A stretch of 64,000 bases of DNA, taken from NCBI GenBank assembly GCA_017856545.1, contig JAFMEV010000002.1, positions 1 through 64,000 of the forward strand. The letters run 5' to 3'. The position numbers and the translations under genes were made by a program. The stretch comes from Chitinophagaceae bacterium. GTDB lineage: Bacteria > Bacteroidota > Bacteroidia > Chitinophagales > Chitinophagaceae. This document shows, piece after piece, positions 44,156-56,812 of this stretch; position 1 is the first letter of the stretch; the number at the start of each line of letters is the position of its first letter. The notes beneath the pieces were generated by a model. The model saw only the letters and a list, made by a program, of their open reading frames with translations, made no database searches and was not told the DNA's origin.

Positions 44156-44959
44156 CTAGATCCAATGATTGAATAATAAGATCAATAGGGTAGTGCCCAA
44201 AATGATACGATACCATCCAAATATCGCAAACCCTTGTTTTTGAACTATTTTAATAAAAAATTGAACAGATAATAGGGCAACTATAAATGCAACAATAGCG
44301 CCAATACTTATGATGAGTAGATTGTCTGAAGCAAATACTTCAGGATTAGATTGGTATACATCCAATGTGCTTTTTGCAGACGCAGCCAACATGGTGGGAA
44401 CTGCTAAAAAGAAGGAGAATTCAGCCGCCGCTTTCTTGGTTAGTTTTTGTGACATGCCTCCAATAATCGTTGCAGCACTTCTACTTAATCCTGGGAATAC
44501 AATAGATAATACCTGAAAGCAACCAATAATAAAGGATGTTTTATAGGATTGTTCCTTTTCTTGTTCAGATGCTAGTTCGTTTGATTTAAATAATTTGTCA
44601 ATGAATAATAAAATAACACCACCCACCACCATCACTATAGCGATGGTTGTTAAATTATTTAATGCAGCATCTATGTATTTTTTTAATAATGCACCAAAGA
44701 TCAATGCAGGAATAACAGCTACAATGAGTTTAAAATAAAAACTGATTTGTCTAAAATTGAAAAATTGTTTTCTGTAAATAATCAAGACAGAAGCGATGGC
44801 TGCGAATTGAATAACAATTTCAAATAAATCTACAAATGGACTATCTGCAATACCTAATATAGGATTAGCAAATTTCATGTGTGCAGTACTTGAAATGGGC
44901 AAGAATTCAGTAATGCCTTCAATGATGGCAATTACAATAGCTTGGAAAACATTCATCAA
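44156..44959 (-). CDS. uppP: Undecaprenyl-diphosphatase UppP/BacA
   Basis: AIIEGITEFLPISSTAHM, FPGLSRSAATIIGGM. Confidence 0.96.
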   Translation of the reverse strand: MMNVFQAIVIAIIEGITEFLPISSTAHMKFANPILGIADSPFVDLFEIVIQFAAIASVLIIYRKQFFNFRQISFYFKLIVAVIPALIFGALLKKYIDAALNNLTTIAIVMVVGGVILLFIDKLFKSNELASEQEKEQSYKTSFIIGCFQVLSIVFPGLSRSAATIIGGMSQKLTKKAAAEFSFFLAVPTMLAASAKSTLDVYQSNPEVFASDNLLIISIGAIVAFIVALLSVQFFIKIVQKQGFAIFGWYRIILGTTLLILLFNHWI

Positions 44960-45199
44960 TTAGTCTTTTTTGAAGATGGCGTATATTTCAATCACAAAAC
45001 CAATGATGATAACAATTGGCGCTAAAGTGATTCTTCTAAAGCTATACACTTCATTTGCATCAAAAACATCTGGATTAGGACTTTTCCCTCCTGACATTAA
45101 AAACATGCCAATGATGATACAAACAGCTCCAATGAGCATCCAGATATAATTTGACTTACCAAAAAACTGTAGTGATTTTTTATCTTTAGATGGATTCAT
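44960..45199 (-). CDS. DUF3098 membrane protein
   Basis: NYIWMLIGAVCIIIGMFLMSGGKSPNPDVFDANEVYSFRRITLAPIVIIIGFVIEIYAIF. Confidence 0.85.
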   Translation of the reverse strand: MNPSKDKKSLQFFGKSNYIWMLIGAVCIIIGMFLMSGGKSPNPDVFDANEVYSFRRITLAPIVIIIGFVIEIYAIFKKD

Positions 45200-45209
45200 A
45201 ATATTTATT

Positions 45210-46085
45210 TTAATAAAGTTCGTCTAGTTTCATTTTTAAATACTTTACCACACTTCTGTAAGTACTTAGTACAGAAATGCCCACGCCTACCACGATTAAT
45301 CCAAAAAACAATACAAGATTATTACCCATGCCTTGCAATGTTTGTATTTGTGGGAATTGAGCTGCTGTCCATTGGATTAAGCCAAACAAAACAATCAATG
45401 CAATACCAGCACTAATTAAACCATTGATTAAAGCGCGAATCACTAATGGCTTTGAAATAAAACTTCTTGTAGCACCTACCATTTGCATTGTTTTTATTAA
45501 GAAGCGATTGCTAAACATAGCAAGTCTGATGGTATTATCAATACTAATGATTACAATAACACATAATATAATGGACATCACTAAAAAGATAATGCCCAAT
45601 TTATCAGCTCTTTCGTTTAAGCTAGACACCAAACTTTTTGGATATTGAATATCTGCAATATCGTTTTTAAACTCTGCACCAATCTTTGCTGTAAGATTGC
45701 TTAGACTATCTGGGTTTACATATTCCGCTTTTGCAAAAAAGTCAACACTTTCAGGTAGTGGATTAACGTCTAAAATTTTTGCCCAGTCTTCGCTATTTTC
45801 TGCGTTCCAAATAGCTTTTGCTTTTTCCTTATTCACATATTCCACATTCTTTGCATAAGGTTGACCTGCAATATATGCTTGTAATTTACCGATGGTATTT
45901 TTGTCGGTACTCTTCAAATACACGCTAATTCTGATATCTTCTTTGAAATGGTCACCAATAGTGCGAAGATTTAGAAATAACCACCCCATAATGCCCATAA
46001 TAAACAGTACAATCGCCACCCCAATGATGCTATAGATATAGTTGGGTTTACTGCGTTTTAAAGATGCGGAGTTGGTTCCTGCCAT
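45210..46085 (-). CDS. ftsX: Cell division ABC transporter permease FtsX
   Basis: FtsX extracellular domain, NTIRLAMFSNRFLIKTMQMVGATRSFI. Confidence 0.93.
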   Translation of the reverse strand: MAGTNSASLKRSKPNYIYSIIGVAIVLFIMGIMGWLFLNLRTIGDHFKEDIRISVYLKSTDKNTIGKLQAYIAGQPYAKNVEYVNKEKAKAIWNAENSEDWAKILDVNPLPESVDFFAKAEYVNPDSLSNLTAKIGAEFKNDIADIQYPKSLVSSLNERADKLGIIFLVMSIILCVIVIISIDNTIRLAMFSNRFLIKTMQMVGATRSFISKPLVIRALINGLISAGIALIVLFGLIQWTAAQFPQIQTLQGMGNNLVLFFGLIVVGVGISVLSTYRSVVKYLKMKLDELY

Positions 46086-46113
46086 AGTATTAAAATTTTA
46101 CTGGTTCGCTTTG

Positions 46114-46121
46114 CAAATGTA
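46114..46121 (-). promoter_or_regulatory. Candidate -7 element TACATTTG for ftsX
   Basis: TAnnTTTG match in left arm of the inverted repeat. Confidence 0.45.
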
Positions 46122-46142
46122 GGGTTTTGAGCGCTAATGACT

Positions 46143-46150
46143 TACATTTG
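46143..46150 (+). promoter_or_regulatory. Candidate -7 element TACATTTG for leuS
   Basis: TAnnTTTG match in right arm of the inverted repeat. Confidence 0.45.
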
Positions 46151-46219
46151 CAAAGGCTGAATTAGCCAAAATTTAGTCAAAAATAGGGCTATCACAGATT
46201 TTTTAAGATAATTTAAGAG

Positions 46220-48970
46220 ATGGAGTATCAATTTAGGGCCATAGAGAAAAAATGGCAGGATCAATGGAAGGTTCAAAAAGCTTATCAGGTGTCTAATCAT
46301 TCCGATAAGCCTAAGTGTTATGTATTAGATATGTTTCCTTATCCAAGTGGTGCTGGTTTGCATGTAGGGCATCCATTGGGGTATATTGCTTCAGATATTT
46401 ACAGTAGATATAAACGTCTTAAAGGATATAATGTTTTACATCCTATGGGCTATGATGCTTTTGGTTTACCTGCAGAACAATATGCTATTGAGCATGGGGT
46501 TCATCCTGCAAAAAGTACGCATGCAAATATTGACAATTTTAGAAAGCAATTAGATAATATCGGTTTTTGTTATGATTGGGATAGAGAAGTGAGAACATGT
46601 GATGCCACTTATTACAAATGGACACAATGGATTTTCTTGCAATTATTCAATGCATATTTTGATCGTCAAGCAAAAAAAGCAAGGCCCATTCATGAACTCA
46701 TTGCAACTTTTGAAAAAGAGGGTAATCAAAATAATGAATGCCCGGCCAATGCAAAACTTCATTTTGATGCTGCTGCTTGGAAAGCCATGAACGAAAAAGA
46801 ACAACAAGATATTTTAATGCAATATCGATTGGCATTTTGTGGATATGGAGAAGTGAATTGGTGTGAGGCTTTGGGTACAGTCTTAGCCAACGATGAAGTG
46901 ATCAATGGATTTAGTGAGCGAGGCGGACATCCAGTGGAGAAGAAAAAATTACGTCAATGGTATTTGAGAATCACCGAATACGCTGATAGATTGTTAAGTG
47001 GATTAGAAACCATCCAGTTTAGTGAAGCGATGAAAGAAATGCAATCTAATTGGATTGGTAAAAGCTTCGGTGCAGAAATTGATTTTAAAATACAAGGAAC
47101 TGAACATAGTTTAAAAGTATACACTACAAGACCAGATACTGTTTTTGGTGTTGATTTTATGGTGGTTGCTCCAGAGCATGAGCTCATTGAGACAATTACT
47201 CCAGCAAGTCATCAAGCAGAAGTTGAAAATTATATTGCTTATGTAAAAAGCAGAAGCGAAAGAGAAAGAATAGCAGAGAAAAAAATTACAGGTTGTTTTA
47301 CGGGTGCTTATGTAATTAATCCTTTTAATCAAAAAGCGATTCCAGTTTGGATTTCGGAATATGTATTGGCAGGTTATGGAACAGGAGCCATTATGGCGGT
47401 GCCTTGTGGAGATGAAAGAGACTTTAAATTTGCGCAACATTTTAATATCCCTATAACCAATATTATTGGAGATGCGTTTAATGGACAAGAAGCTAATCCT
47501 ACTAAGGAAGCAAAATTATCCAATAGCGATTTCTTGAACGGGATGATACAAAAAGATGCGATTGCTATCGTGAATGATAAGATAGAAGCAATGGGTATCG
47601 GTAAACGCAAAGTAAATTATAAAATGCGCGATGCTGCATTTAGTAGACAACGTTATTGGGGTGAACCATTCCCCATTAAATGGAAGAATGGTATTGCTTA
47701 TCCATTATCTGAAAATGAATTACCACTTATATTGCCTACTGTAGACCATTATGGACCTGGTCCAGAAGGTGAGGGGCCATTAGCAAATATTGATGCTTGG
47801 AAAGCCGAGCATTATGAAACCAATACCATGCCTGGTTATGCGGGAAGTAGTTGGTATTTTTTAAGGTATATGGATCCTACTAACGCAAATGAATTTTGTG
47901 GACGTAAAGCAAGTGATTATTGGGGGCAAGTAGATTTATACATTGGTGGTACAGAACATGCGGTAGGACATTTATTGTATAGTAGAATGTGGACCAAGGC
48001 ATTGTTTGATTTAGGACATATTGGATTTGATGAGCCTTATAAAAAATTATTGAATCAGGGGATGATTCAGGGTAGTTCAAGATTTGTGTATCGTAAAAGA
48101 GGCACACAGGTTTTTGTGTCTGCAGGACTTGTTGGAACACAAGAAGTAGATCAGCTGCATGTGGACGTGAACATAGTAGATGGAGTTGAACTAGATACAG
48201 AAGCCTTTAAAAAATGGAAGCCGGATTATGCCAATGCAAGTTTTGAATTAGAAGATGGTAAATATATCTGCGGGGTTGAAGTTGAGAAAATGTCTAAGTC
48301 TAAGTTTAATACAGTAAACCCAGACGATTTAGTAACAAAATACGGAGCAGATACATTTAGAATGTATGAAATGTTTTTGGGCCCAGTAGAACAGAGTAAA
48401 CCTTGGGATACAAAAGGCATTGAAGGGGTTCACAGATTTATTAAGAAGTTCTGGCGTTTGTTTTATGATGAAATAAAAGGTCAGGTATGGGTGGATGAAA
48501 CGCCTACTAATGAAGAATATAAGATCTTACATAAAACCATCAAGAAGATCGAAGAAGACACAGAGCGATATAGTTTTAATACTGCAGTGAGTGCTTTTAT
48601 GATATGCATCAATGAATTATATGATATAGGATGTCATAAAAAAGCAATTTTAGAACAAGTATTGATTCTAATCACGCCCTATGCTCCACATTTTGCTGAA
48701 GAGTTATGGACTTTGATAGGCAATAAAGGATTGATTATAGATGCGCCATTCCCAGTTTTTGAATCAAAGTATGTTATTGAGTCAAGCAAGGAGTATCCAG
48801 TAAGTATCAATGGTAAAGTAAGAGCAAATATCTCTATCGCATTAGACGCAACAGAAGATCAAGTTAAAGAGATTGTATTGGCAAATGATACTATTCAAAA
48901 ATGGGTAGAAGACAAGCCATTGAAAAAGTTGATTTTTGTGAAAGGTAAAATGATTAATATCGTTATATAA
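46220..48970 (+). CDS. leuS: Leucyl-tRNA synthetase
   Basis: MFPYPSGAGLHVGHPLGYIASD, GYDAFGLPAEQYA, editing-domain TTRPDTVFG, VEKMSKSKFNTVNPDD. Confidence 0.98.
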   Translation: MEYQFRAIEKKWQDQWKVQKAYQVSNHSDKPKCYVLDMFPYPSGAGLHVGHPLGYIASDIYSRYKRLKGYNVLHPMGYDAFGLPAEQYAIEHGVHPAKSTHANIDNFRKQLDNIGFCYDWDREVRTCDATYYKWTQWIFLQLFNAYFDRQAKKARPIHELIATFEKEGNQNNECPANAKLHFDAAAWKAMNEKEQQDILMQYRLAFCGYGEVNWCEALGTVLANDEVINGFSERGGHPVEKKKLRQWYLRITEYADRLLSGLETIQFSEAMKEMQSNWIGKSFGAEIDFKIQGTEHSLKVYTTRPDTVFGVDFMVVAPEHELIETITPASHQAEVENYIAYVKSRSERERIAEKKITGCFTGAYVINPFNQKAIPVWISEYVLAGYGTGAIMAVPCGDERDFKFAQHFNIPITNIIGDAFNGQEANPTKEAKLSNSDFLNGMIQKDAIAIVNDKIEAMGIGKRKVNYKMRDAAFSRQRYWGEPFPIKWKNGIAYPLSENELPLILPTVDHYGPGPEGEGPLANIDAWKAEHYETNTMPGYAGSSWYFLRYMDPTNANEFCGRKASDYWGQVDLYIGGTEHAVGHLLYSRMWTKALFDLGHIGFDEPYKKLLNQGMIQGSSRFVYRKRGTQVFVSAGLVGTQEVDQLHVDVNIVDGVELDTEAFKKWKPDYANASFELEDGKYICGVEVEKMSKSKFNTVNPDDLVTKYGADTFRMYEMFLGPVEQSKPWDTKGIEGVHRFIKKFWRLFYDEIKGQVWVDETPTNEEYKILHKTIKKIEEDTERYSFNTAVSAFMICINELYDIGCHKKAILEQVLILITPYAPHFAEELWTLIGNKGLIIDAPFPVFESKYVIESSKEYPVSINGKVRANISIALDATEDQVKEIVLANDTIQKWVEDKPLKKLIFVKGKMINIVI

Positions 48971-56782: not shown

Positions 56783-56790
56783 CAAAGGTA
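56783..56790 (-). promoter_or_regulatory. Candidate -7 element TACCTTTG for copA
   Basis: Minus-strand TACCTTTG, 18 nt before the copA ATG. Confidence 0.5.
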
Positions 56791-56804
56791 CAACTCCTAT
56801 ATTG

Positions 56805-56812
56805 TATCTTTG
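56805..56812 (+). promoter_or_regulatory. Candidate -7 element TATCTTTG for tsaE
   Basis: TATCTTTG-cttt-ATG(56817). Confidence 0.5.

Follow-up and report, generated by a model that had tools for sequence, protein, structure and literature searches.

A conserved back-to-back pair of predicted promoters between ftsX and leuS in Chitinophagaceae, with a spacer near whole helical turns

The stretch of DNA analysed here (the window, 64,000 nucleotides) comes from a genome that belongs to Sediminibacterium (Chitinophagaceae). Within it, the divergently oriented genes ftsX and leuS are separated by a short intergenic region that holds a perfect inverted repeat. The features of the locus are:

44156–44959, minus strand: undecaprenyl-diphosphate phosphatase-like gene, immediately past the DUF3098 gene (NCBIfam E 1.7e-72, slightly under the cutoff)
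44960–45199, minus strand: DUF3098 gene (Pfam PF11297), starting 10 bp past ftsX
45210–46085, minus strand: ftsX, permease-like cell-division protein (Pfam FtsX and FtsX_ECD; ATG at 46085), predicted target of the left promoter
46109–46155, no strand: perfect inverted repeat of two 13-bp arms and a 21-bp spacer, each arm predicted to be positions -12 to +1 of one promoter
46114–46121, minus strand: -7 box TACATTTG in the left arm, predicted ftsX promoter, predicted transcription start at about 46109 (box position from PMC9723704)
46122–46142, no strand: spacer of 21 bp, close to two helical turns; its conserved form in Sediminibacterium reads SGGTTTTGANNGCTAANGNCT, and lengths in the family are phased at about 10.9 bp
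46143–46150, plus strand: -7 box TACATTTG in the right arm, predicted leuS promoter, predicted transcription start at about 46155
46220–48970, plus strand: leuS, leucine--tRNA ligase (TIGR00396, 937 bits, above cutoff; ATG at 46220), predicted target of the right promoter

The ftsX product also matches TIGR00439 (E 1.6e-40, under that model's cutoff). Judging from gene spacing, the DUF3098 gene is probably co-transcribed with ftsX, and the phosphatase-like gene is probably part of the same operon.

On inspection, the repeat consists of the left arm CTTTGCAAATGTA (46109–46121), the spacer GGGTTTTGAGCGCTAATGACT (46122–46142) and the right arm TACATTTGCAAAG (46143–46155). The sequence-only reading had reported a perfect 13-bp inverted repeat, and both its coordinates and its letters were exact. 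A genome-wide search for the 13-mer, which had been proposed as a check, returned exactly two copies in the 1,872,280-bp assembly, both in this repeat. It is the sole perfect inverted repeat in the 64-kb window with arms of at least 12 bp (loop 3–60 bp). Six Markov-simulated windows held 0–1 such repeats each, so arm length by itself is only mildly unusual. What rules out chance is conservation: the outward -7 pair recurs upstream of ftsX across the genus and the family.

Both arms carry a match to TAnnTTTG, TACATTTG, pointing outward to ftsX on the minus strand and leuS on the plus strand, as had been proposed. In relatives the TAnnTTTG is kept in the arms, while the two central bases vary. 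Flavobacterial -7 boxes have been located at -12 to -5 (PMC9723704); by that placement each 13-bp arm would span -12 to +1, and the identity beyond the box would be core promoter. The suggestion that this additional identity calls for a further explanation thus finds no support: it reaches only +1 and is not conserved in relatives, in which the outer extension GCAAAG mostly varies and the kept part is only TTTGC(A). Promoter statistics drawn from stretches of three genomes fit this picture. TAnnTTTG is enriched about fourfold in the sense upstream regions of one genome (G034) relative to its whole sequence, and upstream regions of these genomes tend to have an A six bases ahead of the motif and often a C after it. 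In two of the three, a C directly follows TTTG in 40–47% of cases and is part of the promoter pattern of the genus. The two inner flanks often have AAWC in common, about four bases ahead of each box; it may represent an extended -7 or belong to a protein site spanning the two promoters.

It had also been noted that no TTTG lies at the -33 spacing, and this is true in both directions: neither arm has a TTTG about 17–23 bp upstream, a finding that is not decisive. TTG is barely enriched at this spacing in the three sampled genomes, and the introduction of PMC7366714 states that the -33 motif escaped detection in F. johnsoniae, which the ftsX/leuS pair resembles in having a weak or absent -33. 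Given the weakness of TTG here and the report for F. johnsoniae, the missing TTTG is no anomaly. Two other promoter readings were rejected. A sigma-54 site would need a GG-GC distance of 10 rather than the 9 seen, nor does the window retain the GG; and in the 11-bp spacer class, the arms could serve as each other's -33 elements only with a TTG before CAAA, which is not kept.

Absence of the repeat from close relatives had been named as grounds for refutation, and this condition does not hold. The -7 pair is kept, with a spacing of 19–22 bp, in nearly all Sediminibacterium examined; upstream of ftsX the pattern is CAAAnnTA-n-TAnnTTTG, with n=21 almost always. Across Chitinophagaceae, the outward pair is present at 107 of 116 dereplicated ftsX loci. 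The remaining nine lack a strict pair, two of them lying at contig ends, and the surveyed regions contain only a few, scattered convergent pairs. The outward pair was not found in the sampled other families of the order. leuS adjoins ftsX at 89 of the 92 loci checked.

A second sample covered 30 further genera absent from the first survey, 13 with a divergent leuS and 17 without. The pair was present in 10 of the 13 and in none of the 17. Of the genera without a divergent leuS, 15 of 17 still have the ftsX arm alone, against 0/17 for a control stretch further upstream. The distance from the left arm to the ftsX start has a median of 39 bp. Because the ftsX arm persists alone without leuS, the arms behave as separable promoters rather than as halves of an obligate operator; the left arm would by itself be the ftsX promoter, and the right arm tracks leuS. 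Of the two possibilities raised by the sequence-only reading, a symmetric divergent promoter with a -7 element in each arm is supported by the conservation in relatives, and a single dimeric operator is weakened by the lone ftsX arm. The divergent-promoter prediction is well supported.

That reading had passed over both the conserved spacer and its phasing, and phase-locking of the spacer is the new element here. Over the 116 loci, the one-turn class comprises spacers of 10 bp (3 loci) and 11 bp (18); the two-turn class 19 (1), 20 (9), 21 (34), 22 (20) and 23 bp (8); and the long classes 32 (6), 33 (2) and 64–66 bp (5). A single locus (G225) has a spacer of 47 bp, with leuS not found within 1.5 kb. 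The lengths form clusters at 10–11, 18–23, 32–33 and 64–66 bp, approximately 1, 2, 3 and 6 helical turns, with the ranges between them nearly empty. A period of 10.9 bp fits best (R=0.89, with P values that ignore relatedness). The ten further genera that have the pair show spacers of 18, 20, 21 and, in seven cases, 22 bp, all near two turns, and two loci beyond the tree set have spacers of 32 (G169) and 34 bp (G265). Exceptions to the phasing are the 47-bp spacer, one of 18 bp (L454), the 34-bp spacer of G265 and one of 56 bp in G120, which has one arm mismatch and was counted as lacking a strict pair. Caution is needed over how strong this periodicity is. The phasing is loose, since the 18–23 cluster extends over as much as roughly half a helical turn; and because the three-turn group is one clade and the six-turn group another, only a few independent jumps underlie the periodicity, mostly repeated switches between one and two turns, on an FtsX tree with many unresolved forks (47 of 113 inner branches).

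We consider it likely, from these comparisons, that the repeat is a compact back-to-back pair of primary-sigma promoters for ftsX and leuS, with a spacer near whole helical turns and a protein that meets both. The left arm would hold the -7 box of ftsX and the right arm that of leuS, and the locus would look palindromic because both arms are good copies of one extended -7 pattern, approximately AAWC-N3-TAnnTTTGC, facing outward. As the predicted starts lie 46 bp apart, a polymerase bound at either promoter would cover the other, which would make the two mutually exclusive. In Chitinophagaceae with a divergent ftsX and leuS, the boxes stay about 1, 2, 3 or 6 turns apart, a spacing that places both on the same side of the helix. 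Helical-phase dependence is expected where a bound protein bridges sites. The most probable cause is a protein that contacts both promoters on one face of the DNA, either a shared regulator or polymerase at one promoter touching the other. A bolder and less probable reading is a phase-locked unit in which a regulator or polymerase reads both promoters from one face, coupling the division and envelope operon to leucyl-tRNA synthetase across Chitinophagaceae, with a spacer that evolves by whole turns.

The strongest competitor, which we regard as possible but rather doubtful, is that these are two ordinary, uncoupled divergent promoters and that the clusters reflect founder lengths passed down by descent and altered by a few chance indels of 10–12 bp. 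Divergent promoters are common, the three- and six-turn spacers are confined to one clade each, and the fewest-changes reconstruction on the FtsX tree needs only 9 changes of spacer class. Against this, the same reconstruction needs 32 changes of exact length, and these stay almost wholly inside the clusters; the 10 previously unused genera all fall within 18–22 bp. A control pair in the same genus behaves differently. In the window this outward -7 pair lies at 56783–56812 (CAAAGGTA-14-TATCTTTG), flanked by tsaE and a copA-like P-type ATPase gene, and its spacing in the genus is not conserved (14, 23–25, 31, 44–45, 56–61 and 75 bp; R=0.35). GCAAAnnTA-n-TAnnTTTGC pairs found genome-wide in eight genomes likewise span a broad range of n and look unphased. 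We thus rejected the idea that back-to-back promoters in these genomes are phased in general.

The operator of one dimeric regulator is improbable. Here the arms would be half-sites that overlap the -7 boxes, through which both genes are repressed or activated and cell division is linked to leucine charging. Such an arrangement would account for the perfect symmetry in the window, for the identity of both variable box bases between arms at 72 of the 107 loci, for a spacer conserved within the genus and for a helical phasing that fits a protein bridging both arms. Its half-sites should, however, both be needed and should co-evolve, and neither is what we found: besides the genera that retain the ftsX arm without the right arm, one arm can alter alone (L168 and L176 carry TACCTTTG in the right arm only). 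The arms keep TAnnTTTG, which sigma alone demands, and lose the outer extension; distances from 10 to 66 bp are beyond the reach of one rigid dimer; and no regulator was identified. A palindromic operator within the spacer was likewise rejected, since the symmetry there is only mild (mean z about 1.0 in the two-turn class and 1.35 in the three-turn class).

It is very improbable that the repeat acts as an RNA hairpin, whether attenuator, terminator or leader structure, in a transcript that crosses it. The strand does fold stably (-33.3 kcal/mol, z -3.45), as follows from the inverted repeat, but the stem is AT-rich and neither arm has a T-run after it, whereas an intrinsic terminator combines a GC-rich stem with a T-run; in addition, pairing beyond the 8-bp box is lost in relatives, one-arm changes are uncompensated (L168), the leuS leader has no consensus fold, and Rfam yields only a chance-level match to a plant miRNA.

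The predicted promoter pair can be compared with known systems. Like Bacteroidota primary-sigma promoters, the arms have an outward TAnnTTTG followed by C, at a plausible distance from the gene start. Unlike the usual promoters of the phylum, the two, with starts that are predicted only, stand back to back with conserved, phased spacing and conserved inner sequence. Bidirectional promoters of E. coli and Salmonella, as described in PMC10268837 (citing Warman et al. 2021) and PMC12825309, share one pseudo-symmetric -10, and their starts are usually 18 bp apart, with 10 and 23 bp also common. The ftsX/leuS pair resembles these in its (here predicted) divergent transcription from a short symmetric segment, presumably with polymerase in one orientation at a time. 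It differs in having two whole, separate boxes, 21 bp apart in the window, and predicted starts 46 bp apart there and about 36, 46, 57 or 90 bp apart over the spacer classes. As in divergent promoters with phased regulator sites or DNA looping, for example the pLS20 conjugation switch (PMC4207663), the predicted promoters overlap; unlike in those systems, the analysis of ftsX/leuS turned up no regulator and no operator other than the -7 arms, and the phasing is deduced from evolution.

Bacteroidota promoters are poorly understood, and it is unusual to find evolutionary evidence of two promoters kept a whole number of helical turns apart. Our literature search found no study on the ftsX/leuS pair or its promoter. 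If true, a phase-locked unit would tie a cell-division operon to an aminoacyl-tRNA synthetase. With natural spacers of one, two, three and six turns at hand, polymerase competition or a hidden shared regulator can be tested directly.

Several minor observations concern the flanks and the spacer. A box close to TCTAACGATTG lies 8–10 bp past the right TTTG at leuS in much of Chitinophagaceae (for example G010 contig C1 1455131-1455154, locus L438; also L150 and L175). Genome-wide, -7 boxes show no enrichment of this box after them, and the clade to which the window belongs has a diverged version. Another conserved stretch, GTTAAAGNNNTGTTAG, is found about 55–57 bp past the right box in the leuS leaders of Sediminibacterium relatives (for example G295, G258, L150, L160) and forms no conserved RNA fold with the first leader box. 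CTAACG...GTTAG pairing in leuS leaders was rejected as RNA structure, as it is not compensated, and TAACGAT was rejected as a general promoter element (10 matches, versus 15 for the reversed pattern). Around the repeat (46095–46175), the arms of close Sediminibacterium are alike beyond the predicted starts, reading outward GYGAACAA on the left and GGTCGAATTA on the right; the likeness is weak and not strictly covarying. Finally, the three-turn spacers of loci L315–L319 (the genus of G171) contain an inner near-palindrome, TTATCC-N9/10-GGATAA, which could be a putative regulator site.
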